NCBI GenBank assembly: GCA_030425805.1
Contig: JAUHZC010000003.1
Span: 188,701-252,700, forward strand
Reading direction: 5' to 3'
Length of the DNA: 64,000 bases
From: Alphaproteobacteria bacterium
GTDB lineage: Bacteria; Pseudomonadota; Alphaproteobacteria; JAUHZC01
The notes under the pieces were generated by a model. It had not been told where the DNA came from, did not search any database, and saw only the letters and a program-made list of their open reading frames with translations. The position numbers were made by a program, and so were the translations under genes. This document shows positions 22,659-39,622 of this stretch, in pieces (the stretch's first letter is position 1; the number at the start of each line of letters is the position of its first letter).

Positions 22659-23425
22659 CGTAACAAACCATAACCTTTCTTTTCTTGGTAAGATGGATAA
22701 TTGATTAGCACAGCTTTGTATTTTCCCTTGTAAACAAAAAGACTCCCTGCGGCTGCTCCAACAACTCCAAACTCATCAAAAAGACTTTTAATGTGTAGGA
22801 AGTTACCTGCTCCTCCTAATACTGTTAAGGGAACGCGTATCCTTTCCTTAACAAGCTTGATCAAGTGATGGTCGTACCCCTGCATCATACCATCATTATC
22901 AATAGACTGCAGTAAAACCTCCCCCACTCCCTGTGTTTCTAACTCTTGGATCAAATCTATTAAATCAAGGTGAATTTTTTTATGACCACGGTGAGTCATT
23001 GCGGTATATTTTCTTAATAGACCCGTTTTTTTCACATTGACAACCCCAACAATACTCTGCCTCCCCACACGCTTGATGGCCTCAGGAATAAGTAAAGGAT
23101 TATCAATGTAGCTTGATCCTACCGCAACTTTTTCGACGCCAAGACTTATAATTCTCTCGATTTGATCAACACGTGTAATGCCCCCTGCATAACACATTGG
23201 CATGCGACATTCATTTGACATTCTTTCTATGAGGTCAAAATTTGGTTCAGATCCGCTAGGGGTTGCATCAATATCTGCAACAATAATCTCATCGGCTTCT
23301 TTTTCATTGAATATACGGATTGCGTTCAAAGGGTCACCGACATACTTTCCCTCACCAAATCTAATTGTTTTGGTTAGTCCACCTTCGTGTAATAAAAGGC
23401 ATGGTGTTATTCTTGGGCGTAACAT
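22655..23425 (-). CDS. HisF-like cyclase paralogue of an LPS amidination system (WbuZ/HisF2 type)
   Basis: 256 residues, TIM barrel of the HisF family with ITPCLLLHEGG at the start, DIDATPSGSEPN, AGGITRVDQIERI and LLQSIDNDGMMQGYD. The two catalytic Asp of histidine cyclases are not kept: CLDV reads CLLL and the AID segment reads VVNV. That argues against histidine synthesis and fits the paralogue that, with HisH, delivers ammonia to a WbpG-type sugar amidotransferase. It overlaps the oxidoreductase by 4 bases and follows hisH by one base. Confidence 0.82.
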   Translation of the reverse strand: MLRPRITPCLLLHEGGLTKTIRFGEGKYVGDPLNAIRIFNEKEADEIIVADIDATPSGSEPNFDLIERMSNECRMPMCYAGGITRVDQIERIISLGVEKVAVGSSYIDNPLLIPEAIKRVGRQSIVGVVNVKKTGLLRKYTAMTHRGHKKIHLDLIDLIQELETQGVGEVLLQSIDNDGMMQGYDHHLIKLVKERIRVPLTVLGGAGNFLHIKSLFDEFGVVGAAAGSLFVYKGKYKAVLINYPSYQEKKGYGLLR

Positions 23426-23426
23426 G

Positions 23427-24038
23427 CTAAGTCCCTATTTTTGAAAAATTTTTCAAAAGGCTAATCCCCCAGTGGTGGCTTTTCTCCGGATGGCACTGGA
23501 TACCATAAATTTTTTCCTTGTTAACTATGGAGGGGAAAGCGCCATCATAATAAGTCTTCCCTAGTATGTGGTCTGTATCGGCAGGAGAAAAATAGTAAGA
23601 GTGCAAAAAATAAAATTGAGGATTTTTAATGTCCCTCAAAATATCATCCTTTTTTTGAGCCTGGATTGTATTCCAGCCCATATGTGGTAAAGGATGACTG
23701 TTGTCCAAATTTGAGAATTTCTCTACTGTTCCTGGAATCCAACCCAACCCTGGTTTTTTCCCTTCAGCGCTACTATTTGCCATCATTTGCATGCCAACGC
23801 ATACGCCAACCACAGGAATTTTTCTGTCTAAAACAAGATCATCCAAAGTGTCACGCATGCCAGATTTATCCAATTTTTCCATGGCCCAATCAAAGGCACC
23901 CACACCAGGCAAAATAATTTTTGAAGCTTTTTGCAGGTCTTGTTTGTTTTGAGCCAAGAAAGCTCCAACATGAATCTCCTTGAAAATATTGAGAAAAGCC
24001 CGAACATTCCCAACGCCGTAATCAACAATCGCAATCAA
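23427..24038 (-). CDS. HisH-like glutamine amidotransferase subunit of the amidination system
   Basis: 203 residues, class I glutamine amidotransferase. VDYGVGNVRAFLNIF opens the protein, the nucleophile Cys is in VGVCVGMQMM and the His/Glu of the triad are in IQCHPEKSHHWG. It hydrolyses glutamine and channels ammonia to the HisF-like partner encoded next. It overlaps the PP-loop amidotransferase gene by 4 bases. The setting inside a glycan operon, not with other his genes, argues for a surface sugar role. Confidence 0.85.
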   Translation of the reverse strand: MIAIVDYGVGNVRAFLNIFKEIHVGAFLAQNKQDLQKASKIILPGVGAFDWAMEKLDKSGMRDTLDDLVLDRKIPVVGVCVGMQMMANSSAEGKKPGLGWIPGTVEKFSNLDNSHPLPHMGWNTIQAQKKDDILRDIKNPQFYFLHSYYFSPADTDHILGKTYYDGAFPSIVNKEKIYGIQCHPEKSHHWGISLLKNFSKIGT

Positions 24039-25159
24039 CGTTTTCCTCCGACTTCTTTTCCCAATAGCTTCAAAACGAAAGCACCAATTTTGTATATCCA
24101 GGCCTGTGATTTGTAATCTTCATAGCTCTTCTTCTCAATTTCTAGATATGAAAGAAGCTCTTGAGTCGTAATTTCTAATTTGTTAGCTACAAACTCAATT
24201 TCTTTTTTTATCTCTTTTTTATCATATGGAGGAGATTTAAGCTCTTCTAAAGCTTCGCTTCTTGTCATTTGATGGGTTAGAATAAGGCTGGAGAACTGTA
24301 CCTTTCTAACATCATAATTAAACCTCTCAGGAAGCCAGAAACTCTCATAAAATCGTGTAAAGCGAGATTCAAAGTGTTTCTGTGGATAAGGTTTCCAGCC
24401 AAATTCATTTTGAAGAGTTTGGATGGCATCCTTCTTAATATATTTAACAAAATCCAGAGGCCTTACAACCTGGATTCCTTTGATATATGGAAGGTATATT
24501 TTATGCCACAATATGGATGTTAAAGGATATTTTTTCAGAGGCTTATTCCCAAATTGGCGATGGATATCCCTTATTTGTCGAGCGTCTGATTGGTAATACA
24601 TCCAGTCAACGGGATTGCGAACACACTCCGTTGAGATATTTCCTCCCGTAAGGATATACTTTACATCATATTTATTTGCAAATTTATACATTGTTGCAAA
24701 AAAAGCATTGTCCTGAGGAGAGTCAATATGCGACACTCCTGATTTGAAAAAAGATAGCTGCAGATCTCGCATTTCTGCCCAATCTATTACCTCAGTAAAA
24801 AGATCAAGATTCAGCCCATCAACTAATTTTTCAATATTATTAACAGCAATTTGTGAATTCCAACCAGCATCCACATGAAAGACAAGCGGCCTCAAGCCAT
24901 ATTTTTTTACAGCTAGATAGAGAAGGTAAGAGCTGTCAACACCCCCACTCATGCCTATGATACAATCAAAATCTCGCTTTTCCCCATCTTTTTTAATTTT
25001 GGCTACAAGAGTTTCTAGTTTCCTCACCCCTTCTTCCCCTGTATCCCATCGAGGTAAGGTGTGATTCAAAAAATTATTACAATGATCACAAACTCCGTTC
25101 TCATCGAATACAATTTTTGGATCACTTGTATCCATCACACAATTGGAGCAAATTTTCAT
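24035..25159 (-). CDS. N-acetyl sugar amidotransferase, WbpG/PseA-like PP-loop protein
   Basis: 374 residues from the ATG at 25159, which directly precedes the conserved KICSNCVMDTSDP; a TTG four codons upstream is possible. N-terminal CxxC pairs (CSNC and CDHC) suggest a zinc site, and IIGMSGGVDSSYLLYLA is the ATP pyrophosphatase loop. In Pseudomonas, WbpG with HisH2/HisF2 converts an N-acetyl group of a UDP-sugar to acetamidino. The same three genes are contiguous here and begin the minus-strand operon that also encodes WecB and WecC. Confidence 0.87.
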   Translation of the reverse strand: MKICSNCVMDTSDPKIVFDENGVCDHCNNFLNHTLPRWDTGEEGVRKLETLVAKIKKDGEKRDFDCIIGMSGGVDSSYLLYLAVKKYGLRPLVFHVDAGWNSQIAVNNIEKLVDGLNLDLFTEVIDWAEMRDLQLSFFKSGVSHIDSPQDNAFFATMYKFANKYDVKYILTGGNISTECVRNPVDWMYYQSDARQIRDIHRQFGNKPLKKYPLTSILWHKIYLPYIKGIQVVRPLDFVKYIKKDAIQTLQNEFGWKPYPQKHFESRFTRFYESFWLPERFNYDVRKVQFSSLILTHQMTRSEALEELKSPPYDKKEIKKEIEFVANKLEITTQELLSYLEIEKKSYEDYKSQAWIYKIGAFVLKLLGKEVGGKR

Positions 25160-25470
25160 TGAGATATACAAACCTTTTAATCCCCTTTATACGAGATCTC
25201 AGGTGCATTTTCAATATGGAAGAAAACCTCCCCCGCGTCTGTAACGGTTATGCTGGGCTCTGTGGGAAGCATGGCGGGTGTTATGGTTACCAGGATTGTG
25301 AAGTTCCCAAAAGTTGCTTTGGAAGAACGAGATCCATGAGTCTAACCTTTCCGGATTATTTGAACAGATTCAGTCATGCCAAGGCAATTCTCGTAAGAAA
25401 CATCCTCTTCTTAGTGAGCTAGTGATGCTGCTTAATAATATTGTTGTAAGATCTATAATTCCTAATCTGT
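25160..25470. other. Intergenic stretch between glycan locus and accessory island
   Basis: No confident gene. It must hold the promoter for the minus-strand wbpG operon. A 68-codon open frame on the plus strand (25216-25422, ATG start) contains five regularly spaced Cys, but has a poor ribosome site and no recognised homologue. Another frame is also locally open, so the region may be eroded coding DNA. Confidence 0.35.
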
Positions 25471-25638: not shown

Positions 25639-26046
25639 TCATCCAGTGAAAGCTGTATCCAAAGACATTTTGCTTTCGGAGGTGTCTTGGTAGCTATAAA
25701 TATCTTCAAGTAGGCTAACATATTCATCCATTGTAAGGTCCATATCTCTATTCATGAGTTCTTGGGTTAAGGAATGTGCACATTTTTGCGTAAGTTCCAA
25801 ATCGAGGTAAGCTCGTTTGACTTTTTCCCCAAGAAGCTTGTCTTCGATTCCTTCGATAAGCTCTTGAGGTTCATAACCAAAAGCTTCAGCAATAGCAAAG
25901 ATGGTTTTTGTAGTGGGTTTTTTTGTTTTTCCACTTGTAATGTTATGCACAGCATTTCGGTTTAAACCAGCTCTTCGTTCAAACTCGAGAACCGAAATTC
26001 CCATTTTTTCAATGCTGGCCTTTATTCTGGATGCAAGAATGCTCAT
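25639..26046 (-). CDS. XRE-family regulator, left copy (slightly truncated)
   Basis: 135 residues from the ATG at 26046, set 7 bases after AAGGAG. The N-terminal helix-turn-helix reads EKMGISVLEFERRAGLNRNAVHNITSG, followed by KTIFAIAEAFGYEPQELIEG. The C-terminal half is acidic and helical, possibly for dimerisation. A close paralogue lies at 43265-43702. Here the protein ends at a TGA exactly where the paralogue has Trp (TGG); the downstream codons still match, so the last 10 residues were lost by one point mutation. It is divergent from the operon starting at 26425 and probably regulates it. Confidence 0.85.
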   Translation of the reverse strand: MSILASRIKASIEKMGISVLEFERRAGLNRNAVHNITSGKTKKPTTKTIFAIAEAFGYEPQELIEGIEDKLLGEKVKRAYLDLELTQKCAHSLTQELMNRDMDLTMDEYVSLLEDIYSYQDTSESKMSLDTAFTG

Positions 26047-26053
26047 AAAAAAT

Positions 26054-26100
26054 CTCCTTGACATCATATATTTCGTATAATATACGTATACCTATACAAA
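26054..26100. promoter_or_regulatory. XRE promoter/operator with palindrome, left copy
   Basis: CGTATAATATACG at 26074-26086 is a perfect 13-base palindrome centred on one A, lying 28 bases upstream of the XRE start, and followed by GTATAC. The block from TTGACATCA to TATACGTATA is nearly the same upstream of the second XRE gene, which implies that both regulators bind related operators. AAGGAG (26054-26059, minus strand) is the ribosome site. Confidence 0.5.
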
Positions 26101-26424: not shown

Positions 26425-28116
26425 ATGAATAGCTTAAAGGAAGAAAAGTCATTTAATATCTGTCACCATATCTGGGATCAGAAGTATCGTTATGGCGAAG
26501 AATCCTTAGACCAGACACTACAAAGGGTGGCAAAATTCTTAAGTCAAAATGAAAACAATAGTGCAGAGTGGTACCAACTCATGCTTGACGCCATGAGTTC
26601 GTTTGAACTTATACCTGGTGGACGTATTCTTTATGGTGCCGGCACTTCACGTGAAGCAACCTTAATGAATACATTTGTCATGGGGAAAATATCTGACTCA
26701 TTTGAATCTGTATTTGAAAATCTCTATGAAACAGCACTGACCATGCGCTCAGGAGGTGGAATAGGGATCAACATAAGTCATTTGCGTCCAAACGGAGACT
26801 TTATTGCAGGCCTGGAAGAAACGACAGCTGGACCTCTTCCATTTCTAGATCTTTGGAGTAGTATGTGTGGTTCAGTCATGTCTGGAGGCGCAAGGCGAGG
26901 AGCAATGATGGGCCTTCTTGCGTGTGACCATCCTGATATTTTTGACTTTATTTCACTGAAAAAAAGAGATAAATTCACTAATTTCAACTTCTCAGTATTA
27001 ATTACTGATGCCTTTATTAAAGCGGTTAAGACAAACGATACTTGGATCTTACAGTTTAAAGGTGAGCCCTATAAGGTTATCCAAGCCCGTGAGCTATGGG
27101 ATCGGGTAATGGAAAGTACTTACTACAATTCTGAACCTGGCGTTATTTTTATTGATCGCATTAATGAGCGTAATAATCTTTCCTATTGTGAAGAGATTGT
27201 CAGTACAAATTCATGTGGCGAACAGCCCATGCCTTTCTATGGTGCATGCCCACTTGCTTCAATTAATCTTGTTAAGCTCATACAGAATCCCTTCACGGAA
27301 AATGCTTTCTTCGATGAGACCAGGTTCAGGGAATTAATATCTATTGGTGTTCGGTTACTGGATAATGTCGTTGATCTTTCCCACTTGCCGTTACAGAAGC
27401 AAAGAGAGGCAGTGCTCAAAACACGAAGAATCGGACTTGGTATCACTGGCTTGGCTGATGCTTTGGCAATGATGAATATACGTTATGGCTCACAGCAAGC
27501 CTTGGATCTATTAGCTGATTGGATGCAACTTCTCAGAGATTATAGCTATATTTCTTCTTCTCAAGTTGCTCTTGAAAAGGGCCCATTTCCTCAATTTGAT
27601 AAGGATAAGTTCCTACGAGGTGGCTTTGCGAGGACTCTTCCTCAGTATATTCAAAAGCTGATTAGACAGCACGGTATTCGGAATGGAGTTCTCAACTGTA
27701 TCGCACCTACAGGAAGTATTTCTCTGTTTGCAAACAACGTCTCCTCTGGGATTGAGCCAATATATTCATTGAAGACGGAGCGAAAAATTCTCACGAAGCA
27801 AGGTGAGGAGGAAAACTTCATCCTAGAGGATTATGCCTACAAACTCTTTAAGCAAGCTCCAAGGGCAACAAGTACTTTTGTTACTGCTACAGAACTTGGA
27901 GTTGAGGAGCATTTACAAACTCAAGCTGTGGCCCAGCAATATATTGATGGCAGCATTTCCAAGACTATCAATTGTCCGGAAAATCTGAGCATGAATTCAT
28001 TGGAGGATGTTTATTTGCAAGCTTATGAGCTGGGTTGTAAAGGCTGCACAACCTATCGCAAATCAGAGGTAAGGGGTTCAATTTTTCAAGAGATAAAGGA
28101 AGAAGAATATGTCTAA
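26425..28116 (+). CDS. Class II (adenosylcobalamin) ribonucleotide reductase-like enzyme, divergent
   Basis: 563 residues aligning with NrdJ-type reductases: LIPGGRILYGAGT, SGGGIGINISHLRP, GARRGAMMG, STNSCGEQPMPFYGAC, APTGSISLFANNVSSGIEP, SKTINCP and GCKGCTTYR. The thiyl-radical Cys264 (NxCxE) and Cys275 are present. The N-terminal redox Cys, normally in LFNCFV, is Thr83 (LMNTFV), and the usual C-terminal extension with the swinging Cys pair is missing: the protein ends 22 residues after CTTYR. So it may use a B12 radical on a ribose or other polyol without normal turnover by thioredoxin. It opens the operon and overlaps the aminotransferase by 8 bases. Standard reductase function is the alternative. 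Confidence 0.8.
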   Translation: MNSLKEEKSFNICHHIWDQKYRYGEESLDQTLQRVAKFLSQNENNSAEWYQLMLDAMSSFELIPGGRILYGAGTSREATLMNTFVMGKISDSFESVFENLYETALTMRSGGGIGINISHLRPNGDFIAGLEETTAGPLPFLDLWSSMCGSVMSGGARRGAMMGLLACDHPDIFDFISLKKRDKFTNFNFSVLITDAFIKAVKTNDTWILQFKGEPYKVIQARELWDRVMESTYYNSEPGVIFIDRINERNNLSYCEEIVSTNSCGEQPMPFYGACPLASINLVKLIQNPFTENAFFDETRFRELISIGVRLLDNVVDLSHLPLQKQREAVLKTRRIGLGITGLADALAMMNIRYGSQQALDLLADWMQLLRDYSYISSSQVALEKGPFPQFDKDKFLRGGFARTLPQYIQKLIRQHGIRNGVLNCIAPTGSISLFANNVSSGIEPIYSLKTERKILTKQGEEENFILEDYAYKLFKQAPRATSTFVTATELGVEEHLQTQAVAQQYIDGSISKTINCPENLSMNSLEDVYLQAYELGCKGCTTYRKSEVRGSIFQEIKEEEYV

Positions 28117-29359
28117 AAAACTTGCCTTATTTGGTGGGGAACCCGTGATTCCAATCAGATACCGCACATTTCAACACCCTCGCATTGATGTCTCTCAAAC
28201 ATCGATCATGTCAGAGCTGAGCGATACAATGATTTCATATGAAGGTAATGGGATTACCAAACAGTTTGAAAGTGTGTTTGCAGACTTTTTTTCACTAGAG
28301 AATACTTTATCCTTCAACAGCGGGACAAACGCTTTATTTGCACTTTATTATGGAGCAGGTTTGAAAGAAGGGGATGAGGTGCTTGTGCCTGGGTTTACTT
28401 TTTTTGCCACAGCTACACCACTCTTTCTTCTAAAATGTCGACCAGTTCTTGTGGACTGTACTCCCAATGGAAATATGGATCCTGAGGATATAGTTAGGAA
28501 AATAACTCCCAGGACCAGAGCAATAGTTGTCACGCATGTTTGGGGTTTTCCCTGTGAGATGGACAAAATCCAGAAAATTTCTAAAGAGCATAATCTCCTT
28601 TTATTTGAGGATGCATCACATGCGCATGGAGCAACAATGGATGGCCGGCATGTTGGTTCTTTTGGTGATGGTGCTGCATGGAGCCTAGGAGCGAAGAAGC
28701 TTCTTACTGGTGGGCAAGGAGGCATACTCGCAACGCCACATAGAGGGATCTTTGAAAGGGCATTGCTTGTAGGACATTATAACCGAAGGGCTTTGTCACA
28801 AGTAGAAGACATAGGTCTTTTTCCTTTTGCAGAGACAGGAACAGGGCTTAATCTGCGGATGCATCCTTATGCTGCTGCAACACTACTAGAGCAGATGAAG
28901 TCTTACGGTGATCAGCTTGCTGAAAGACGTGAAACAGCGGAGATGTTGATTGAGGGAATAAAATCTATTCCTGGACTAGAGACTCTTCCCGTTGATCCTC
29001 GCATGGACCCTTCTTGGTATGCTTTCCCGCTTCAATATAATAAGAAAGAGTTTAAAGGGGTTAGCAAAGAAACTTTTGTAAAAGCATTACAGGCAGAAGG
29101 GGCACTGGAAGCTGACATTCCAGGCACAACCTGTCCGCTCAATCGTTTTTTTGCATTCCAGGTGAATTTCACAGGTCAGAAAGTTCCTAATAGTGATCTC
29201 CAACCCACAAATCAGAGCTTACCCGCGTGTGACAAATACAGTGAGGTTTTTCTCAAATTGCCAACATGGTATGGGCCAGACAGATTACAATATACAGAAT
29301 ATTACATTAAATCATTAGAGAAAGTGGTGAAGAACTGTGATGAACTCAAGAACATATAA
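28109..29359 (+). CDS. DegT/DnrJ/EryC1/StrS-family PLP aminotransferase
   Basis: 416 residues. N-terminal LALFGGEPV is typical of the StrS group. PLP residues are visible: LSFNSGTNAL, Asp168 in LFEDASHAHGA, and the Lys of WSLGAKKLLTGGQGG (197 by alignment). VPGFTFFATATPL and LRMHPYAAA also match the family. These enzymes transaminate ketosugars, cyclitols or related natural-product intermediates. Flanked by a ribonucleotide-reductase-like gene and a Nudix gene with overlapping reading frames, it is probably part of a small-molecule pathway, not the O-antigen locus. Substrate unknown. Confidence 0.88.
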   Translation: MSKKLALFGGEPVIPIRYRTFQHPRIDVSQTSIMSELSDTMISYEGNGITKQFESVFADFFSLENTLSFNSGTNALFALYYGAGLKEGDEVLVPGFTFFATATPLFLLKCRPVLVDCTPNGNMDPEDIVRKITPRTRAIVVTHVWGFPCEMDKIQKISKEHNLLLFEDASHAHGATMDGRHVGSFGDGAAWSLGAKKLLTGGQGGILATPHRGIFERALLVGHYNRRALSQVEDIGLFPFAETGTGLNLRMHPYAAATLLEQMKSYGDQLAERRETAEMLIEGIKSIPGLETLPVDPRMDPSWYAFPLQYNKKEFKGVSKETFVKALQAEGALEADIPGTTCPLNRFFAFQVNFTGQKVPNSDLQPTNQSLPACDKYSEVFLKLPTWYGPDRLQYTEYYIKSLEKVVKNCDELKNI

Positions 29360-30251
29360 AGTTGAAAATGAGCCCAGTGAGCAAGGGTTCCTTTCTTTGT
29401 TGGATGAATGCAATCACTTCAACCTTGAAGAGTTCTCTTCTGTGAATTATGCAGGCTTTCCAATAGGGTATGTGCACAAGGATTTTGTACACTATGTCTC
29501 TCAAAATCCAATGTTTCTTCTTGATAAAGGTAATCTACATATTGTGGAAGATTATCACGATAGCCAAAAGCTAACAGATGCTTTCAGCAAAATAAATAGA
29601 GAGTTAGAAGACAATGGCATAATTAGAAACTCACATGGCGGTGAAGAATATAATGTGGTTCATAGTGGTTTCACCAATCCTTTGTTTAAAATAAGCCGTG
29701 CTGCAGCAGGTTTTTGGGGAATCCGTGTTTTTGGAGTTCATGTCAATGGTCTTTCAGAGAGAAATGGGCAATGGCACATGTGGGTTGCTAAGAGAGCGAA
29801 ATCGCGTTCAGCTCCAGGTTTACTGGATCACATGGTTTGCGGTGGTTTGGATTCAAGTTTATCAATCCAGGAAAACCTCATTAAAGAGGCACAGGAGGAG
29901 GCAAACATTAATGCACAGGATATTATCAAGGCATCCCCTGCGGGCATGGTTTCATGTTGGATACAGACAGGCCATTTCCTAAACCGATTTACTCCTATTA
30001 TTTACGATCTTGTATTAGATAAAGACTTTGAGCCAGTGAATAAAGATGGTGCAGTGGAGTCTTTTTCAACCATGGCACTCGATGACATATGCAAGCAACC
30101 TGAAAAGATCGCTTTGTTCAAAGTCAGTGCTTACCCTGTGCTTGTCAATCTTTTGATAAGGCACGGATACATAGAGGCTGATCATCCAGAATATCTCAGT
30201 CTTTGCGCCTCATTGAACAGGGGCTTTATCGATATAATTAACACTAAATAA
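29340..30251 (+). CDS. DUF4743-Nudix protein (thiamine pyrophosphokinase-like Nudix group)
   Basis: 303 residues from ATG 29340; a GTG one codon upstream is possible. The N-terminal half resembles DUF4743 (FPIGYVHKDFV) and the C-terminal half is a Nudix domain with GGLDSSLSIQENLIKEAQEEAN, whose REUxEE core appears as KEAQEE, as in this subgroup. Relatives in fungi and plants hydrolyse damaged thiamine diphosphate derivatives. Here it overlaps the aminotransferase by 20 bases, so a role on a pyrophosphate-containing intermediate or house-cleaning for the pathway is inferred. Confidence 0.78.
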   Translation: MNSRTYKVENEPSEQGFLSLLDECNHFNLEEFSSVNYAGFPIGYVHKDFVHYVSQNPMFLLDKGNLHIVEDYHDSQKLTDAFSKINRELEDNGIIRNSHGGEEYNVVHSGFTNPLFKISRAAAGFWGIRVFGVHVNGLSERNGQWHMWVAKRAKSRSAPGLLDHMVCGGLDSSLSIQENLIKEAQEEANINAQDIIKASPAGMVSCWIQTGHFLNRFTPIIYDLVLDKDFEPVNKDGAVESFSTMALDDICKQPEKIALFKVSAYPVLVNLLIRHGYIEADHPEYLSLCASLNRGFIDIINTK

Positions 30252-30265
30252 GAAAAGGAAAGAGT

Positions 30266-30829
30266 ATGAAGAAATATGCTGTTCTCACAAATGATATGCA
30301 AGTTGCATTTGCCAATAAACATGAAGAGCGTAGAGACGCTGTTCAAAATTTTCTACCAGGATTTTTGAAATTTATTAATTCAATGCGTTCACATGGTATT
30401 CCTATCATTCACTTACAACTAGTGATCAGTGATGATGATCCCCGCTCAAAAGAAAACTATGGCCCTTTCCCACCTCTTGTGGAGGGCTCAAAGGGTGTGC
30501 AAATTCTTCCAGAGTTGTGGGATGAAAAAGATACTATTGTCGTAAAAAATAAAGATAGTGGGTTTTTTGAAACAGATTTGGATGAAAAGCTTAAAGAGTT
30601 AGGTGTGGATACCTTAATCATCTCTGGGATGCAAACTCAGATTTGTGTTCAAACGACTGCGGCTGACGCACACTTTCGCGGATACAATGTAATTGTTCCA
30701 CCTGAGACAGTCACATCTACCCGTGGTGAAGATACAAAGCGCTCCTTGGAGTGGATGGAAAGCTATTGTGCAAAAATTATTCCCAGCCAAGAGATTATTA
30801 GCAAGTTCGCCCAAAATGAAGATATTTAA
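30266..30829 (+). CDS. Isochorismatase-family cysteine hydrolase
   Basis: 187 residues, single domain. The catalytic triad of the family is visible as Asp10 (LTNDMQVAF), Lys93 (IVVKNKDSGFF) and Cys126 (MQTQICVQTTAADAHFRGY). Members hydrolyse amides, ureas, vinyl ethers or carbamoyl groups, including nicotinamidases, N-carbamoylsarcosine amidase and biuret hydrolase. It lies 14 bases after the Nudix gene and 10 before hypE. A carbamoyl or nitrile-derived amide substrate would suit the neighbours, but this is inference. Confidence 0.85.
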   Translation: MKKYAVLTNDMQVAFANKHEERRDAVQNFLPGFLKFINSMRSHGIPIIHLQLVISDDDPRSKENYGPFPPLVEGSKGVQILPELWDEKDTIVVKNKDSGFFETDLDEKLKELGVDTLIISGMQTQICVQTTAADAHFRGYNVIVPPETVTSTRGEDTKRSLEWMESYCAKIIPSQEIISKFAQNEDI

Positions 30830-30839
30830 GGAGATCGAG

Positions 30840-31859
30840 ATGACTGAAAATAATGCAATCATACTTGACCATGGAGCAGGGGGTTTACTCAGCAAGAAAC
30901 TTCTTGATGACATTATTATACCTATTTTGGAGCCCGTGTATCTTGGAAAAATGGAAGACTCAGGGATAATCTCTTTGAATGGCTCACAAGTCGCTATTAC
31001 GACAGATAGTTTTGTTATTGATCCTATATTTTTTCGAAATGGAGATATAGGAAAATTGTCCGTTTGTGGGACAGTCAATGACATTGCTGTCTCTGGGGCA
31101 AAGCCTGAATGTATCAGTCTTTCATATATTCTAGAGGAAGGATTCCCGATAGATAAATTGAGGAAGATAACGGAATCAATAGTTACTACTTGCCAGGAAG
31201 CATCTGTTTCAATCATCGCGGGTGATACAAAAGTAGTTGGTAAGGGTGAGGCTGATCAGATTTATATCAATACGACTGGATTTGGGACATTTTCTTCTGA
31301 TCGCTCGCCTTTAAGCCTTTCTAAAATAAGTGACAATGACGATGTTATTGTTTCCGGTCATGTAGGAAATCATGGTATCCACATTCTTTCAATGAGGGAA
31401 GGGTTGGGTTTTGAAAGCCGTGTATTGAGTGACTGTGCTCCTTTGAATAAAGCGATTCAAGCAATCCTTGGTAAATATGGAGATGATATACACTATATTC
31501 GTGACTTAACGCGTGGCGGGCTTGGGAGTATTTTTAATGAAATATCTAATGATACTCAGAAAAATATAACCTTAAAAGAAGCTGACATTCCACTTCAACA
31601 TGAGACGGTGATGGCTGCAGAAATGCTGGGTGTCAGTCCCCTTTATTTAGCTAACGAAGGGAATATTTGTATCATGGCTAATCCACGTATAACTGAAAGC
31701 CTTCTCCAAGATTTGCAGGCCATGGAATACACAAAGCATGCGGCATTGTGTGGCAAGGTCTATAAGAGTGAAGATCCAAAGGTTTTATTTCAGCAAGAGG
31801 ATGGGACCTTATCTATCCTTGACTTCCTTAAAGGAGCAGAATTGCCGAGGTTGTGCTGA
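30840..31859 (+). CDS. hypE: HypE-like carbamoyl dehydratase
   Basis: 339 residues from the ATG at 30840, placed after AAGGAG; a longer frame upstream is not supported. In hydrogenase maturation HypE receives a carbamoyl group on its C-terminal Cys from HypF and dehydrates it with ATP to a thiocyanate. All key parts are seen: LDHGAGGLLSKKL, TTDSFVIDPIFF, GDIGKLSVCGTVNDIAVSGA, AGDTKVV, RDLTRGGLG and the C-terminal PRLC ending in Cys339. The stop overlaps the hypF start (TGATG). No hydrogenase or other hyp gene is nearby, so the cyano group may go elsewhere. Confidence 0.93.
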   Translation: MTENNAIILDHGAGGLLSKKLLDDIIIPILEPVYLGKMEDSGIISLNGSQVAITTDSFVIDPIFFRNGDIGKLSVCGTVNDIAVSGAKPECISLSYILEEGFPIDKLRKITESIVTTCQEASVSIIAGDTKVVGKGEADQIYINTTGFGTFSSDRSPLSLSKISDNDDVIVSGHVGNHGIHILSMREGLGFESRVLSDCAPLNKAIQAILGKYGDDIHYIRDLTRGGLGSIFNEISNDTQKNITLKEADIPLQHETVMAAEMLGVSPLYLANEGNICIMANPRITESLLQDLQAMEYTKHAALCGKVYKSEDPKVLFQQEDGTLSILDFLKGAELPRLC

Positions 31860-34171
31860 TGACAGGATGTGCAACCTACAAAATTGTTGTGGAAGGTAAG
31901 GTTCAAGGAGTAGGATTTAGGCCCTTTATCTATGTTCTAGCTACAGAAATGGATCTTAAGGGAAATGTGAGTAATAACTCTAACTCAGTTGTTATTACGG
32001 CCCAAGGAGCTACTGAGCAGCTCGATAAATTTGTTGAGACAATCAAGGAGAGGAAGCCGCCTGCAAGTTCGATTTCTAAACTTGATTACGTACAGGTTTC
32101 TAATGAGGAACAGTATGAAAACTTTCAAATTATTGATAGCCAAACGGTATCTGAGAAAGGTATTCCAGTAACAGCTGATCTTGTAGTTTGTCAAGAATGC
32201 CTCACAGAGATGTTTGAGACCTCGAATCGGCGTTACCTGTACCCTTTTATCAACTGCACAAATTGTGGTCCTCGTTACTCAATTATTCATGATATTCCGT
32301 ATGATAGGCCCAACACGAGCATGTCATCATTTAAGATGTGCGATGATTGTAGGAAAGAATATAATGACCCTTTGAATCGGCGTTTCCATGCCCAACCAAT
32401 ATCTTGCTGGAAATGTGGGCCAGAGTTACGGCTTTTGAATAAGGACTTCCAGACAGTTCCATGTGATGACCCTATTGCGGAAGCCGTTTCATATTTAAAG
32501 CAAGGACATATCATTGCTGTCAAAGGGATTGGAGGGTACCATCTCATAGCTGATCCATTAAATGAAGCATCTCTAGAGACGCTTCGACTCAGGAAAAAAC
32601 GAGACCAGAAACCATTTGCATTAATGTGCTATGGCTTAGAAGAGTGCGAAGAGATCTGTGTTGTTCGCTATACGCATGAACGGGAACTGTTAGAGAGCAT
32701 TGAAAGGCCGATCGTTCTTTTGCCTAAGCGTTCAGATCACCCCTTGCCTGAAAATGTAGCCCCGGGCAACACGAATTTTGGTGTTATGTTGCCCTATACG
32801 CCCATTCATGTCTTGCTAATGAAGGGGTCATTTAAATATCTTATTTGCACCAGTGCAAATATCAGTGATAACCCCATTATTCACAATGAAGACAGTGATG
32901 ATTATAGGGAACTTACCAATCTTTGTGATTATGTTTTGACTCATAATCGGGGAATCGTGAATTTTTCAGATGATAGTATTGTGAAGTGTATTATTGAAGA
33001 TAATTCGCCTCGACATCACATCATTCGCCGTTCTCGAGGGTATATCCCAGATTTATTTGAGTTTATGCATGAAGGACCACCACTGCTAGCTGTTGGTGCA
33101 GAGTTAAAAAATACGGTCAGTCTGACGAAAAAGAATAAGATTTTTATGAGTCAGCACGTGGGTGATTTAAAAGGTGTGGGTTTGTATAGTTGCTTTGTCG
33201 AGCTTATCAACAATATGCGTACTTTTTTTGATCAAAAACCTGAAGCGGTTGTTTGTGACCTGCATCCAAATTTTATCAACACTACTTTTGCAGAGAAATT
33301 AGGAATTCCTGTTCTTCGTTGCCAACACCACCACGCCCACATGAATGCATGTATGGCTGAGAATAGTCTGGAAGGACCAACAATTGGTGTTGTCTTTGAT
33401 GGTATGGGGTTTGGTCTTGATGATAAAATCTGGGGTGGGGAGTTCTTGGTTGGAGATTATAAATCTTTTGAAAGGTGTGGTCATTTTGAATATTTCTCCT
33501 TACCGGGTGGAGACAAGTGTAATAAAGATATATCACGTACGCTTTTTGGGCTTTATTATTCATATTTTCAAAATAAAGACCTTCTTTTATATTTAAATAA
33601 TGAATTGTTTTCCATGCAGCAATTTGAAGTTTTTGAAAAAATGGTAAAACAAAATATCAATTCTCCCTTAACCTCTAGCTTGGGAAGAATATTTGATGCT
33701 GTAGCCGTGCTGATTGGCTTGCGCGCCCATGCTAACTTTGAGGGTCAAGCCGCGATAGAACTAGAACAATTAATTTGTAAGAGTTTTGATGGCATGCAGC
33801 ATGGTTTTTACAATCACTCTATAACAAATGCAGGCAAGCTTCCTTTTCAGATATCTGTTAAAGAGTTTCTCTCCGAGATTATAGAGGATGTAAAGACTGG
33901 CACCCCGAACTCACTAATCAGTGAGAAATTTCATAATATGCTCATCAATATTGTCGTTGATGCTTGCCGAGTCATACGCCAAAAGCACACTCTTAATGAT
34001 GTCACATTGTCAGGTGGATGTTTCTTGAATACGTACCTCCTTGAAGGATGTATCCATCAGCTGACAAAAGAAGGGTTTCATGTCTACTACCACCAAAGAT
34101 ACCCAACCAATGATGGCGGTATCTCTTTGGGGCAGGCTGTACACGGCTTGTCAGTTCTTGGAAGTGGTTGA
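31859..34171 (+). CDS. hypF: HypF-like carbamoyltransferase
   Basis: 770 residues from the ATG at 31859, overlapping the hypE stop by one base. HypF uses carbamoyl phosphate and ATP to make carbamoyladenylate and loads HypE. All domains are intact: acylphosphatase (VQGVGFRPF, residues 15-23), zinc-finger region with CxxC pairs (CQEC, CTNCGPRYS, CDDC, CWKCGP), YrdC-like domain (AVKGIGGYHLIADP), and Kae1-like domain (HHHAHMNACMAEN, GVVFDGMGFG, LSGGCFLNTYL). It is followed by carA and carB, which would supply its substrate. No degraded motif was found. Confidence 0.94.
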   Translation: MTGCATYKIVVEGKVQGVGFRPFIYVLATEMDLKGNVSNNSNSVVITAQGATEQLDKFVETIKERKPPASSISKLDYVQVSNEEQYENFQIIDSQTVSEKGIPVTADLVVCQECLTEMFETSNRRYLYPFINCTNCGPRYSIIHDIPYDRPNTSMSSFKMCDDCRKEYNDPLNRRFHAQPISCWKCGPELRLLNKDFQTVPCDDPIAEAVSYLKQGHIIAVKGIGGYHLIADPLNEASLETLRLRKKRDQKPFALMCYGLEECEEICVVRYTHERELLESIERPIVLLPKRSDHPLPENVAPGNTNFGVMLPYTPIHVLLMKGSFKYLICTSANISDNPIIHNEDSDDYRELTNLCDYVLTHNRGIVNFSDDSIVKCIIEDNSPRHHIIRRSRGYIPDLFEFMHEGPPLLAVGAELKNTVSLTKKNKIFMSQHVGDLKGVGLYSCFVELINNMRTFFDQKPEAVVCDLHPNFINTTFAEKLGIPVLRCQHHHAHMNACMAENSLEGPTIGVVFDGMGFGLDDKIWGGEFLVGDYKSFERCGHFEYFSLPGGDKCNKDISRTLFGLYYSYFQNKDLLLYLNNELFSMQQFEVFEKMVKQNINSPLTSSLGRIFDAVAVLIGLRAHANFEGQAAIELEQLICKSFDGMQHGFYNHSITNAGKLPFQISVKEFLSEIIEDVKTGTPNSLISEKFHNMLINIVVDACRVIRQKHTLNDVTLSGGCFLNTYLLEGCIHQLTKEGFHVYYHQRYPTNDGGISLGQAVHGLSVLGSG

Positions 34172-34198
34172 TTGTATAGGTATATATTGTGAGGCTAT

Positions 34199-35299
34199 AT
34201 GAAGATAAGATTGGAAAATGGCCAGGAATATCGGGGGGAATCATTTGGGTACCCTAAGAATGCCATTGGAGAGGTTGTTTTTAATACTTTGATGTGTGGA
34301 TATGTGGAGGCTTTAACAGATCCCTCTTATCATGGTCAAATTCTGCTATTAACTTACCCCCTTCAGGGGAACTATGGGGTTCCTGATTCGCTATTTGAGT
34401 CGCGTCGTATTCAGGTAAGTGGACTTTTAATAGCGAATCATGCCTTGTACCCAGCACACTTCAAACATGCTCACACTTTGCAAGAGTGGCTTTATTCTCA
34501 AAAAATTCCAGCGTTGCATCAGGTCAATACACGTGCTCTTACCCAGTATTTACGGGAAAAGTCAACGATGAAAGGGTTGCTTGTCAGCCAAGAAGGAGAG
34601 TATCCACAGGCAGCTGAAGTTGATACGATTATTTATAGTGAAGAAGAGTGCGTTTTTCACAGTGGTGATCTGAAAGTTCTTGTCATTGACATAGGCTGTA
34701 AAAGAAATATTATCAGATCGTTATGTTGCCGAGGAGTGACAGTGATTTGCATCCCATGGTGGAAAGATTGGGAGCAGTATATACCGGAGTGTAATGGAGT
34801 TGTTATCTCCAACGGTCCTGGTAATCCGAATCAATATGTAGAGCTAATAACGCGTGTGAAGGGTTTAATAACCCTAGATATGCCGATATTTGGCATCTGC
34901 CTCGGTCATCAACTCCTTTCTCTTGCAGCAGGGGCCGTCATAGAGAAAATGGCGTATGGTCATCGCTCGGTAAACCAGCCCGTAAGGGATGAGAGAACAA
35001 GAAAGTGTTATATAACATCTCAAAATCATGGCTACATGGTTGTTAAAGAGACTTTGCCGGAAGATTGGATGCCATGGTTCACAAACTTAAATGATTATTC
35101 AAATGAGGGAATGTATCACAAGTATAAACCAATTCGCTCTGTTCAGTTTCACCCCGAAGCTTCCCCAGGTCCAAATGATACAGCTTTTCTGTTTGATGAA
35201 TTTGTTTACGATATGAACGCATATGGTCGTACCATTTCAGTTTCTTCAAAGTATAAGGCTATAGAAAATCAAGTTTATGATTTGGAAATAAGAAAGTGA
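34199..35299 (+). CDS. carA: Carbamoyl-phosphate synthase small subunit, divergent type
   Basis: 366 residues. The N-terminal domain begins MKIRLENGQEYRG and has EVVFNTLMCGY and ALTDPSYHGQILLLTYPLQG. The glutaminase triad is intact: Cys234 (FGICLGHQ), His318 and Glu320 (SVQFHPEASPG). The wording of the N-terminal domain is nearer to animal CPS1/CAD than to E. coli CarA, which has EILTDPSYSRQIVTLTYP. It makes ammonia for CarB, encoded 13 bases downstream. Position directly after hypF suggests a dedicated carbamoyl phosphate supply, although it may also serve pyrimidine or arginine synthesis. Confidence 0.92.
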   Translation: MKIRLENGQEYRGESFGYPKNAIGEVVFNTLMCGYVEALTDPSYHGQILLLTYPLQGNYGVPDSLFESRRIQVSGLLIANHALYPAHFKHAHTLQEWLYSQKIPALHQVNTRALTQYLREKSTMKGLLVSQEGEYPQAAEVDTIIYSEEECVFHSGDLKVLVIDIGCKRNIIRSLCCRGVTVICIPWWKDWEQYIPECNGVVISNGPGNPNQYVELITRVKGLITLDMPIFGICLGHQLLSLAAGAVIEKMAYGHRSVNQPVRDERTRKCYITSQNHGYMVVKETLPEDWMPWFTNLNDYSNEGMYHKYKPIRSVQFHPEASPGPNDTAFLFDEFVYDMNAYGRTISVSSKYKAIENQVYDLEIRK

Positions 35300-35312
35300 G
35301 AGCAATTAATTA

Positions 35313-38300
35313 ATGATAAGAAAGGATCTGCCAAAAAAAGTACTTGTATTGGGTTCGGGAGGGCTTCAAATCGGTCAAGCTGGTGAGTTCGATTACTCTG
35401 GTAGCCAGGCCTTAAAAGCTTTGCGGGAAGAGGGAATAGAAACCGTCCTTATTAACCCAAATATTGCGTCCGTTCAAACCGATTGGGACATGGCTGATGC
35501 TGTGTATTTCCTTCCTTTGGAATCCAACTTTATTGAAGAAGTTATTCAAAAAGAGAATGTTGATTCGATTCTCCTTAGTTTTGGAGGGCAAACAGCCCTG
35601 AATTGTGGATTAGAACTTGATCGGCAAGGGATATTAGAGAAATATAATGTGAAAGTTCTAGGGACATCTCTTCGTACAATCGACTTAACCGAGGACCGTA
35701 AACTTTTCGCTTTAAGCCTAGCGGAAATAGGTGTGCCTGTAGCTCAGTATGAGTTTGCCTCCTCAGTTGCAGAGGCTCTTGTTGCTGCAGAAGGGATAGG
35801 CTTCCCTGTTATGATTCGCACTGCATACACTTTAGGTGGTAAAGGGTCAAGTATAATCAAAAACAAAGAAGAATGCCTAAAGTATGCCGAAAAAGCACTA
35901 AAAAATTCATCTCACGTTCTTGTTGAAGAGTGCCTCGCGGGTTGGAAAGAATTTGAGTATGAAGTGATGCGTGACGGACAAGATAATTGTCTCATTGTCT
36001 GCAACATGGAAAATATTGACCCTATGGGTATTCATACAGGAGATTCAATTGTTGTTGCCCCCTCCCAGACACTTGATGATGTTGAGTATCAACGCTTAAG
36101 AGATATTGCTTTGAAAACAGTGAGGCATCTGGATATTGTGGGAGAGTGTAATATTCAGTTTGCCCTTGATAAGGAGTCCCGCACATTTAAGGTTATTGAG
36201 GTGAATGCGCGTCTTTCACGCTCATCTGCCCTTGCATCAAAGGCTACAGGCTACCCGATTGCTTACGTAGCTGCGAAGGTTATTCTAGGCTACGAGCTTG
36301 CTGAAATTAAGAATGCTATGACAGGTGTTACAACAGCATTCTTTGAGCCAGCTATGGATTATATTGTTTGTAAGGTTCCTCGATGGGATTTTGATAAGTT
36401 CCCGGATATTGTTCCTCTTATTGGAAGTGAAATGAGGAGTATTGGTGAGGTAATGTCTATCGGTCACTCCTTCGGGGAAGCAATCCAGAAAGCCCTTCGA
36501 ATGGTGGGTTTGAATTACAATGGGCCGTCAGCCTTACAAGCTGTTAATGACTACAGTGTGCCGAGCCCAACACGAATATTAAGCATCTTTAAAGCTCTTA
36601 AAGGGGGCGTGGCATGTTCTGTACTCGCAGAAGCTACGGGTATTGATCAATTCTTTCTCAATGAAATGAAGGTAATTGTGAACACTGAATCAGAGATTGT
36701 AGATAAAGGGAACTTAGATAGATTTGATGCTTTGTTTTTTAATAAAATCAAGAAATTAGGGGTGTCTGATGAACGAATTGGTGACTTAGTCAATGCACCT
36801 GTACAACAGGTTATCAAACGAAGGCAAGAGCTAGGTGTAAGGCCATATCTTCTACAAATTGATACCCTTGCCGCCGAATACCCCGCAGTAACCAATTTCA
36901 CTTACTTGAGTTATGGCGCATCCCAGCATGACTCAACAGGTCCACACAAAAAGGAGCGTGTTCTTATCTTGGGGGCTGGTTGTTATCGAATAGGGTCAAG
37001 TGTTGAGTTCGATTGGTGTGCAGTGAACTGTTCTAAAGCTTTAAGACAAATGGGGTATGAGACAATATTGTTAAACTGCAACCCTGAAACGGTTTCGACT
37101 GATTTCGATAACTGCGACGTTCTTGTTTTTGATGAAATCTCTGTTAGTAATATTCTCGAACTATGTGAGCTTTATAACCCCATTGGTGTTGTGGTTTCGA
37201 TGGGAGGGCAGGTGCCAAATAACCTTGCTAAAGATATGGAAGAAAATGGCATCCCAATTTTAGGTACCCCACCGCACTCAATTAACCTTGCTGAAGATCG
37301 CTCGAGGTTTTCAACGTTGCTCAATAAACTAGAGATTGATCAGCCACAATGGTGTGCTGTTAATACTCTAGAAGATATAAGGAAAAATCTCGATATAATC
37401 GGGGGTTTCCCTGTTTTAGTAAGGCCTTCGTTTGTTTTATCAGGTACCCGTATGGGGGTTGCCTATAACGAGGGGGATTTGCAACACCTTGTAAGTCAAG
37501 CCCAGATAGTGTCCCCAAAGCATCCGGTAATTCTTTCAAAGTTTGAAAAAAACGCTAGAGAAATCGAATTTGATGCTGTGGGACAAAATGGTGAAATAGT
37601 AGTCTTTGCATTTGCTGAGCATATCGAAAACGCAGGTGTGCACTCTGGCGATGCGACTTTAGTTTTGCCAACGTTTAGTCTGAGCCAAGCATTACAGAAG
37701 AGAATGCAGCGTATTGCATCTTCCATTGCAGCTTCTTTAAAAGTCTGTGGGCCATTTAATATACAATTTTTGATTAAAGATGAATCTGTGAAGGTTATAG
37801 AGTGTAACTTGAGAGCTTCTAGGAGTTTGCCTTTTGTATCAAAATCCGCAGGCGCAAATTTTGTAGAAATTGCAGTTAAGGCAATGCTTGGCGAATCGAT
37901 CCCTCGTCAAGCTAGCTCCATTGAAAGTAACTTACCTTACTTTGCGGTGAAGTCCCCCCAATTTTCATTTGAGAGAATGCCCGGCGTTGATCCCTGTTTG
38001 GGTGTTGAAATGGCTTCTACGGGAGAGGTTGCTTGCCTGGGGCAAAGCTTTGAAGAAGCTTTACTTCTTTCAGTCTTATCTAGTGGTTTTGTTGTGCCTA
38101 CCCAGGGTGTGCTGCTGGATGTGTATGAGGATACAATACATAGCTCTGAGCTGATTACTAATCTCCTTTCACTGGGTTTGGCTCTTTATACAGTGGGAGA
38201 ACATAATGTGTATTGTGCTGAACCCATAGAAGAAATAAAAGCATTAGAGATGATGAAAGATGGAGAGATCGACCTCGTCATAAGTCTTGCAAGTAAATAT

Positions 38301-38474
38301 GATCTATCAAGGTCGGAGCGGGGATGTACACTGCGCAAAGCATCTCTTGATGCGAATACAAGCTTTATTTCAAATGTACAGTTAGCAGAAAAAATCATTG
38401 ATTCATTGATTTATTATAAGTTTAATAAATTGAACTTTTCTTCATGGTCAAATTATTTAAATTTAATGGAATAG
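35313..38474 (+). CDS. carB: Carbamoyl-phosphate synthase large subunit, divergent type
   Basis: 1053 residues, full length with two ATP-grasp halves. It forms carbamoyl phosphate from ammonia, bicarbonate and two ATP. VLVLGSGGLQIGQAGEFDYSG, PNIASVQT, CNMENIDPMGIHTGDS and IEVNARLSRSSALASKATGYP mark the first half; the second begins VLILGAGCYRIGSSVEFDW. IEVNARLSRSS and the SGGLQIGQAGEFDYSG wording resemble the eukaryotic CPS group instead of the usual bacterial IEMNPRVSRSS. The C-terminal allosteric domain is short and poorly conserved. It closes the operon. Confidence 0.93.
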   Translation: MIRKDLPKKVLVLGSGGLQIGQAGEFDYSGSQALKALREEGIETVLINPNIASVQTDWDMADAVYFLPLESNFIEEVIQKENVDSILLSFGGQTALNCGLELDRQGILEKYNVKVLGTSLRTIDLTEDRKLFALSLAEIGVPVAQYEFASSVAEALVAAEGIGFPVMIRTAYTLGGKGSSIIKNKEECLKYAEKALKNSSHVLVEECLAGWKEFEYEVMRDGQDNCLIVCNMENIDPMGIHTGDSIVVAPSQTLDDVEYQRLRDIALKTVRHLDIVGECNIQFALDKESRTFKVIEVNARLSRSSALASKATGYPIAYVAAKVILGYELAEIKNAMTGVTTAFFEPAMDYIVCKVPRWDFDKFPDIVPLIGSEMRSIGEVMSIGHSFGEAIQKALRMVGLNYNGPSALQAVNDYSVPSPTRILSIFKALKGGVACSVLAEATGIDQFFLNEMKVIVNTESEIVDKGNLDRFDALFFNKIKKLGVSDERIGDLVNAPVQQVIKRRQELGVRPYLLQIDTLAAEYPAVTNFTYLSYGASQHDSTGPHKKERVLILGAGCYRIGSSVEFDWCAVNCSKALRQMGYETILLNCNPETVSTDFDNCDVLVFDEISVSNILELCELYNPIGVVVSMGGQVPNNLAKDMEENGIPILGTPPHSINLAEDRSRFSTLLNKLEIDQPQWCAVNTLEDIRKNLDIIGGFPVLVRPSFVLSGTRMGVAYNEGDLQHLVSQAQIVSPKHPVILSKFEKNAREIEFDAVGQNGEIVVFAFAEHIENAGVHSGDATLVLPTFSLSQALQKRMQRIASSIAASLKVCGPFNIQFLIKDESVKVIECNLRASRSLPFVSKSAGANFVEIAVKAMLGESIPRQASSIESNLPYFAVKSPQFSFERMPGVDPCLGVEMASTGEVACLGQSFEEALLLSVLSSGFVVPTQGVLLDVYEDTIHSSELITNLLSLGLALYTVGEHNVYCAEPIEEIKALEMMKDGEIDLVISLASKYDLSRSERGCTLRKASLDANTSFISNVQLAEKIIDSLIYYKFNKLNFSSWSNYLNLME

Positions 38475-38514: not shown

Positions 38515-39501
38515 CTATGGCTTCTTAAAGTGCCGTATATAAGAGAGCCTGAAGAGAACCAGGATCGATGCGATAAAGCCCACGATATTGAATGCATTTA
38601 GTTTGAGAGGGAATATTGGCCACGAAAGGGCAAGGACGATGAGCGGAGTTAAACTGCGCATGGCCATCGAGTAGCGAAAAGTAGAAAATTCTGCCCCTCT
38701 AAAAAACAAGAACAGAGAGGAGAAAATAAAAATATTGGCAAATATAATTAATAAAATGTATTCTATGTTTTTGAAAAATAGGTTGAGTTCAATAGTCTCA
38801 GGGACTTTGATCAAAAGTGAAAGGGTAACCAAAATTATATATGAAAATAAGTGACTAACTGCAATAAGATAGTTTCGATTGGTGCACTCCGTCTTTTTTG
38901 CAACTAGTGAGTAATAAACAGAGAAAAAAAAGCTACTAAATACAGCAAAACCAACTCCTGTAAAGTTTAACATAAGTGATTCAACCTCATGGTCATAAGC
39001 GATGCAGAATCCTCCACAAAGTAAAATAAGGAGAAGTATTGCTTCTTCCATAGAAGCACTTTCTTTTAGGTAGAAGTAAGAAGATAAGAAAGAAAAAATC
39101 ACAAAAAACCGTGTAAATAGTACGAAAGCTGCAGGATGTAGCAAATATATGGCCCCAAAATATGTACATAGAGCAAAAGCATTTACGACCATTAGTTTTC
39201 CACATAGGCCAATATCAACGATGGGAGGGCAATATTTTTTAGATAAATTTCGATAAAGAACAAAGGTCGCGCAAATAAAAGTGCAGATAAGAGAGTTTAA
39301 TAATATGAAGTTTTCAAAAGAATAATATGATAAAGATATCTTATACATAATCGTTGCGAGACCACTGAGTAAGATGGAGAAAAATTGTATAATCTCTCCT
39401 CTGGCGGAATTGCAATGATTTAAATATTTGATAATTTTAAAGTTCATTTTTGATAAGTGGTTTTTAATCAACTGTGCTGTTTTTTCGGGCTTTTTTAGCA
39501 A
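38515..39501 (-). CDS. EamA/DMT-type membrane permease
   Basis: 328 residues with about ten hydrophobic helices, the layout of drug/metabolite transporters. The two five-helix repeats are visible, with helices around FFSILLSGLATIMYKISLSY, NAFALCTYFGAIYLLHPAAF and FRYSMAMRSLTPLIVLALS. It is convergent with carB, 40 bases away. It could export the product of the adjacent pathway or import a precursor. The family call is based on topology more than motifs. Confidence 0.7.
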   Translation of the reverse strand: MLKKPEKTAQLIKNHLSKMNFKIIKYLNHCNSARGEIIQFFSILLSGLATIMYKISLSYYSFENFILLNSLICTFICATFVLYRNLSKKYCPPIVDIGLCGKLMVVNAFALCTYFGAIYLLHPAAFVLFTRFFVIFSFLSSYFYLKESASMEEAILLLILLCGGFCIAYDHEVESLMLNFTGVGFAVFSSFFFSVYYSLVAKKTECTNRNYLIAVSHLFSYIILVTLSLLIKVPETIELNLFFKNIEYILLIIFANIFIFSSLFLFFRGAEFSTFRYSMAMRSLTPLIVLALSWPIFPLKLNAFNIVGFIASILVLFRLSYIRHFKKP

Positions 39502-39622
39502 AAAAGTTTTTATATTTAGGGCTTGGAAGATGCCACCATAAAAATTTATAGATATTTAGTTTGTTAAAAGACATAGTAACTAGAATAATGTAGGGAATCA
39601 AAATAATATTTGTGCCTCAGCC

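Follow-up and report, generated by a model that had tools for sequence, protein, structure and literature searches.

The window, the stretch of 64,000 nucleotides that was analysed, carries an eight-gene operon headed by a paralogue of the class II ribonucleotide reductase (RNR) NrdJ in which threonine stands at the position of the first redox cysteine. Judged from sequence, this gene has departed from ribonucleotide reduction in a real and conserved way, most likely toward a redox-neutral reaction. More specifically, we give a probability of roughly 45% to the reading that it encodes a redox-neutral B12 radical enzyme making a 3'-keto-2'-deoxynucleotide, which would be aminated at C3' by the next enzyme of the operon. 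We refer to NrdJ copies of this kind as Thr-type and to those with cysteine at this position as Cys-type.

Active-site residues of the window RNR

NCBIfam, Pfam and PDB sequence searches all identify the protein as a class II RNR barrel. Its score against TIGR02504 (NrdJ_Z) is 506 bits, above the cut-off of 400, and T. maritima (Tm) NrdJ, 1xje, is its best solved relative in the PDB sequence search. The same entry is the closest PDB structure to an AlphaFold2 model of the protein (mean pLDDT 85.8, pTM 0.89), with a TM-score of 0.84 by query length and 29% identity. In phmmer alignments, Cys264 corresponds to the radical cysteine Tm Cys322, Cys275 to Tm Cys333, and Thr83 to Tm Cys134 (by its index in the deposited chain). 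These alignments bear out the sequence-only reading, which had taken Cys264 and Cys275 for the thiyl and second cysteines and Thr83 for the occupant of the first redox position. N262, C264 and E266, the residues that mark membership by the radical cysteine, are all present. The positions concerned are:

26425..28116, + strand: Thr-type NrdJ paralogue, class II RNR barrel, 563 aa (open reading frame with ATG start)
26671..26673, + strand: codon of Thr83, the first redox Cys position, from alignments
27208..27222, + strand: codons of Asn262-Ser263-Cys264-Gly265-Glu266, the radical Cys with its Asn and Glu; Ser263 marks the Thr-type
27247..27258, + strand: codons of Cys275-Pro276-Leu277-Ala278; the second redox Cys is present, and Pro276 and Ala278 are marks of the Thr-type

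Column 83 holds cysteine in 22/22 aligned relatives and threonine in the window RNR. This first alignment of 22 other rows took in 5 of 11 loci from one search, leaving out L006 and L012 (both Cys on reading), L009, L010, L013 and L014; of 20 further loci (L016-L035), L032-L034 were omitted as split matches of the long type. Thr83, combined with the retention of Cys264, Asn262 and Glu266, counts in favour of a redox-neutral radical reaction.

The protein also stops at 563 residues without the swinging CxxC tail, as had been read from the sequence. Its last cysteine is C541, and its stop codon falls where the next gene has already begun (an overlap of 8 bases), so that no tail remnant is left and none is hidden behind a frameshift. 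The four long relatives whose ends were inspected (L005, L011, L016, L035) have a Cys-rich tail of the CPxCG...CxxC type. Such a tail is not universal in NrdJ, about 30% of which are described as lacking the Cys-rich domain (PMC5704485); the missing tail alone is thus weak evidence, and Thr83 is the strong part. Two candidates for a substitute tail were rejected: CKGC at 538-541 belongs to an ordinary GCKGCTTYR motif that long NrdJs also have, and a split RNR with its tail on a neighbouring gene is ruled out by the lack of any Cys-rich small frame at 26425-38474 among listed frames of at least 90 aa.

Could the gene simply be decaying, or have lost catalysis, in a genome that has shrunk? The genome size of 1.41 Mb, a long branch in the tree and a best identity to other NrdJ of about 50% would fit this, yet the frame is intact, it overlaps its operon neighbour, 108 of the 123 columns that do not vary among the other 28 rows are retained, and the Thr-type relatives are under purifying selection (see below). 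We consider this explanation very improbable. An isomerase, epimerase or lyase acting on a nucleotide or other phosphorylated sugar, with the aminotransferase working on a different product, is a less remote alternative, though still an improbable one. The changed neighbours in the active site (A135, S263, P276, A278), as well as M269 and F271, found in the window copy only, may mean another substrate. Against this, the PTG motif is kept along with the 108 invariant columns, and the nearest aminotransferases sit in nucleotide-type operons.

The window genome (1.41 Mb, 12 contigs, 91% complete) is the sole member of its order in the comparison set. The sequence-only reading had proposed a check for another functional RNR, and a PF02867 search found one: an open frame of 1245 aa on contig 8, which carries HACF, NPCSE, ACNLAS and the tail CQECG...CMKCDTCGST, and is by sequence a complete NrdJ. 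The same search of this 91% complete genome found no further large-subunit RNR frame. DNA synthesis here is therefore probably already B12-dependent, leaving the window gene free for another job. Compared with alphaproteobacterial NrdJ (TIGR02504), the window RNR has in common the barrel fold, the radical cysteine with its Asn and Glu, the second redox cysteine and about 50% identity; it differs in Thr83, in the missing tail, in its non-DNA operon and in its occurrence beside a second, complete NrdJ.

Thr-type NrdJ in other genomes

Scanning 385 genomes of the class with the window RNR gave a match at E<=1e-150 in 130 of them, its own included, and the other matches reach at most 52% identity. 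Genome G150, one of those matched, holds a second NrdJ copy of 576 aa with NTFV, NSCAEQ and CPLAS and without a tail. Searched against 146 relatives of G150, this copy revealed such copies in 9 genomes, and G438 and G440 were added by scanning 398 genomes across the phylum, of which 39 (own included) matched at 1e-140. Short Thr-type copies are thus present in 11 further genomes, which belong to a single alphaproteobacterial family.

In the 12 Thr-type rows, window included, T83, A135, N262, S263, C264, E266 and P276 are found in 12/12 and A278 in 11/12. C275 is likewise kept in 11/12; it is Ser in G769, where both redox cysteines are thus absent. Cysteines after R545 are absent in 12/12 (six rows are cut at the match end), and the full listed frames of G779, G796 and G744 likewise end without one. 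The threonine, serine and proline at 83, 263 and 276 occur together in 0/19 Cys-type rows and in 0/80 viral relatives (80 listed of 276). The latter read C, S, N, P, C, E, C, L, G at positions 83, 135, 262, 263, 264, 266, 275, 276 and 278 in 80/80, and with all of these aligned viral sequences being Cys-type, a phage origin of the Thr-type was rejected. Three other candidates were not retained as Thr-type: G126 (574 aa) and G015 (610 aa), which are short yet carry NCF and a terminal Cys pair, and G154 (662-aa frame), Cys-type on reading.

Among G150, G794, G769 and G766, dN/dS is 0.07-0.11 in 5/6 pairs, the sixth being saturated, which indicates that Thr-type copies are kept by selection despite the missing redox pair. 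This purifying selection and the T83/S263/P276 set common to 12/12 rows count for a redox-neutral reaction. A long-frame NrdJ is also found in the window genome and in 10/11 of the other Thr-type genomes (open frames of 736-1245 aa); in the eleventh, G779 (81% complete), none is among its matches.

Whether the window gene and the other Thr-type copies form one lineage was addressed with an alignment and tree including 19 Cys-type rows chosen by hand. The nine first-found Thr-type copies are monophyletic (100/100, stem 0.77). The window gene lies apart on a long branch, and a single clade uniting it with the nine is allowed (p-AU 0.466). At the 27 columns separating the nine from the 19 Cys-type rows, it is Thr-like at 5 and Cys-like at 17. 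The five (83, 135, 263, 276, 278) include the first redox position and neighbours of both catalytic cysteines (263 by 264, 276 by 275). The phylogeny suggested by the sequence-only reading therefore yielded a Thr-type family, with a clade including the window gene compatible but without support, and this lack, together with the 5/27 against 17/27 columns, counts against our main reading. Common descent with later drift and convergence on the same active site are both possible from these sequences.

We read the surroundings of 7 of the 11 other Thr-type genes (all except G769, G829, G762 and G440). The three glutathione S-transferases (GSTs), the GGDEF/EAL frame of G438 and three cobalamin frames of G150 were checked with Pfam; other neighbours were assigned by reading translations. 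No DegT-like aminotransferase lies beside the gene in 7/7 (listed frames), so if the reaction is common to the family, its product is used differently there. A divergent GST gene adjoins the Thr-type NrdJ in 3/7 (G744, G796, G438), a GGDEF/EAL frame is near it in 3/7 (G779, G744, G438), cobalamin-synthesis genes are next to it in 2/7 (G150 and G794; L053 and L076, divergent from the cluster), and an ABC transporter adjoins it in G766. The GST could serve in disposal of a reactive furanone (see below) or in supplying glutathione to a reductase. GST stands divergent from the Thr-type NrdJ at L088 10055-12777, L082 8971-11692 and L083 5735-6385, followed in two of these loci by GGDEF/EAL, possibly a functional link.

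The missing aminotransferase and the GST at 3/7 count against the redox-neutral reading and bear on its chief competitor, that these proteins are still ribonucleotide reductases, re-reduced by formate, glutathione or another thiol, or a protein, with Thr83 or Glu266 handling the 2'-OH. Class III RNR (NrdD), a glycyl radical enzyme, works with formate on an incomplete redox pair and without a Cys tail; it keeps the first cysteine and lacks the second, the reverse of the window RNR. The GST genes hint at glutathione chemistry, and the retention of Cys275 in 11/12 copies means that this residue still matters, which also counts against a redox-neutral reaction. Tail-less NrdJ are moreover common, and DTT is described as reducing one directly (PMC5704485). 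Against a reductase stand the loss of the first redox cysteine in 12/12 rows and of both in 1, the long-frame NrdJ in nearly all of these genomes, by which reduction is already covered, and the window operon, none of whose genes is a DNA-precursor gene. We consider it unlikely overall. It had been claimed that a normal RNR lacking these cysteines could not reset itself: the findings support the view that the protein is not a normal reductase, and the claim is too strong to the extent that another electron donor might serve.

Each of the three Thr-type copies compared with the NCBIfam model (window, P0009, L058) exceeds its cut-off. Such genes thus get named 'adenosylcobalamin-dependent ribonucleoside-diphosphate reductase', that is, as DNA-precursor enzymes.

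The operon and its carbamoyl genes

Eight + strand genes follow each other in the order RNR, DegT, DUF4743-Nudix, isochorismatase-like, HypE, HypF, CarA and CarB, with overlaps or gaps of at most 27 bases. Besides the RNR gene, the features are:

25639..26067, - strand: HTH regulator, divergent, upstream of the RNR gene; possible operon regulator
28109..29359, + strand: DegT-family aminotransferase, 8-base overlap with the RNR gene; Pur4/AdgC-like by comparison with copies from adg-like operons
29337..30251, + strand: Nudix hydrolase with DUF4743 domain, closest PDB entry 3dup
30266..30829, + strand: isochorismatase-family hydrolase
30840..31859 (start 30840 or 30819), + strand: HypE, above the NCBIfam cut-off, C-terminus PRLC
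31853..34171, + strand: HypF carbamoyltransferase with five HypF-type Pfam domains
34199..35299, + strand: CarA, carbamoyl-phosphate synthase small subunit
35313..38474, + strand: CarB, single copy found in the genome

A promoter and terminator scan found sites no more numerous than in shuffles. The DUF4743 Nudix is scattered (16/58 genomes, the window's own included) and gives no guide to function. The isochorismatase-like gene has weak scores against biuret and ureidoacrylate-type hydrolases; its sequence fits ureido chemistry, no more. Just after the operon (38515-40429) lie an EamA transporter (- strand) and a weak frame of the endonuclease/exonuclease/phosphatase family (+ strand), possibly an exporter and a phosphatase of the pathway. 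The region lies between two similar HTH regulators separated by 17 kb (25639-26067 and 43265-43702, both - strand) and might represent a segment that is mobile or was duplicated. Just upstream (22655-25171, - strand), HisF2/HisH/WbuX-type genes for acetamidino (amidine) sugar modification are part of a polysaccharide locus.

The plasmid copies most similar to the aminotransferase come from the Plautia stali symbiont (43.8%, on pPstS2) and Ca. Pantoea carbekii (43.4%, on pBMSBPS2); both lie in an operon of Gfo/Idh, DegT, Nudix and inositol monophosphatase. The next matches are on Streptomyces plasmids, with Gfo/Idh plus Nudix or thymidine phosphorylase. Among 397 other genomes of the phylum there is one match at 1e-70, also in a Gfo/Idh-type operon, and among 384 other genomes of the class none at 1e-60. 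In a 15-row tree, the window DegT joins three symbiont-type copies (96/97); a wider group of all six rows with Gfo/Idh context is compatible with this tree (p-AU 0.167), without support. A lysine invariant in 15/15 rows, taken as the PLP lysine, is present in the window DegT. The second complete NrdJ, the eight-gene operon and this kinship (96/97) count for the redox-neutral reading.

HypF is described as transferring the carbamoyl group of carbamoyl phosphate to the C-terminal cysteine of HypE, which becomes a thiocyanate (PMC4506123). Like the system that makes the cyanide ligands of [NiFe]-hydrogenase, the window has a HypE with a PRLC end, a complete HypF, and CarAB as a carbamoyl phosphate source; it differs in that its genes are joined to a nucleotide-type operon and that HypD has 0 matches in the genome (4/14 controls match). 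OTCace_N, the domain of aspartate/ornithine carbamoyltransferase, also has 0 matches (14/14 controls match); at 91% completeness such absences may be gaps. With a single CarB, this leaves no found pyrimidine, arginine or hydrogenase use of carbamoyl phosphate here, and from sequence CarAB-HypF-HypE seems to serve this operon alone. A natural guess is that the product carries an attached carbamoyl or cyano group, and these two absences and the one CarB count for it.

Proposed chemistry and related operons

In Photorhabdus luminescens, adgB-E, homologues of pur10/4/7/3, make 3'-amino-3'-deoxyguanosine, as confirmed by expression in E. coli (PMC9239236). Pur10 is described as oxidizing the 3'-OH to a carbonyl with NAD, Pur4 as the aminotransferase, Pur7 as a Nudix hydrolase and Pur3 as a monophosphatase (PMC11641026). 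The window operon has in common with this pathway a Pur4/AdgC-like aminotransferase (42-43% identity to stinkbug-symbiont copies) followed by a Nudix hydrolase. It differs in that the Pur10-like Gfo/Idh 3'-dehydrogenase is absent and the RNR paralogue takes its slot, in that neither a Pur3-like phosphatase nor an inositol monophosphatase (IMPase) is seen among its genes, in that Hyp and Car genes are added, and in its Nudix (DUF4743), which is of another subfamily than that of adg. The other Nudix subfamily, the missing phosphatase and the 91% completeness count against our reading.

In this setting, we infer the following course. Adenosylcobalamin would generate a thiyl radical on Cys264, which would take H3' of a ribonucleotide, after which water would leave from C2'. 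Without a redox pair, the C2' radical would regain hydrogen from Cys264; this would yield a 3'-keto-2'-deoxynucleotide and restore the cofactor. The Pur4/AdgC-like aminotransferase would capture this unstable ketone as a 3'-amino-2',3'-dideoxynucleotide, with no net redox change. The Nudix enzyme would remove phosphate, and CarAB, HypF and HypE would make a carbamoyl or cyano group, probably decorating the product. E. coli RNR with mutated redox cysteines reportedly follows the ketone-release path, in work by Mao and others in 1992. RNR is described as passing through a 3'-keto-2'-deoxynucleotide stage, to which the redox Cys pair delivers electrons (PMC3483043), and that this ketone is a known intermediate counts for the ketone-making reading. 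Once released, it is described as losing base and pyrophosphate to give a furanone (PMC7321198).

The direction of the sequence-only reading, a B12-dependent radical enzyme with a redox-neutral or different role, gains from the second NrdJ, the 11 further Thr-type copies and the 3'-aminotransferase operon; for the exact role, the odds are those given above. More tentatively still, an RNR-derived 2'-dehydratase and 3'-ketone maker may replace the NAD dehydrogenase, the product of this small-genome alphaproteobacterium being a 3'-amino-2',3'-dideoxynucleoside, carbamoylated or cyanated by a CarAB-HypF-HypE line released from hydrogenase duty, and the other Thr-type NrdJs the same enzyme in other pathways. 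By title and abstract, we recognised in the open-licence PMC literature neither an RNR-like enzyme in nucleoside biosynthesis nor a role of HypE/HypF outside hydrogenase, and a biosynthetic operon of this make-up has no known match in the searches made. To our knowledge, a redox-neutral RNR reaction has so far been seen only with damaged mutants and suicide substrates. If the proposal is true, the RNR fold has a natural reaction of this kind, there is a direct way to chain-terminating amino-dideoxynucleosides, and HypE/HypF gain a role outside hydrogenase.

Related operons were also observed on plasmids. An adg/pur-like operon (Gfo/Idh, DegT, Nudix, inositol monophosphatase) is found on plasmids of stinkbug gut symbionts (L037, L036), with a further case at L041 (G169). 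In Ca. Pantoea carbekii it occupies over half of a plasmid of 6.3 kb (NZ_CP010909.1, 6287 bases), and it is perhaps a defensive source of aminonucleosides. In Streptomyces sp. 769, a Gfo/Idh, DegT and Nudix operon on pSGZL (L038 9411-16703) has a plasmid-borne alaS in its vicinity, possibly encoding a self-resistance alanyl-tRNA synthetase. A Nocardia plasmid (L044 4131-9490) holds a cluster of DegT, formyltransferase, endonuclease/exonuclease/phosphatase and Nudix genes, perhaps another aminonucleoside pathway.
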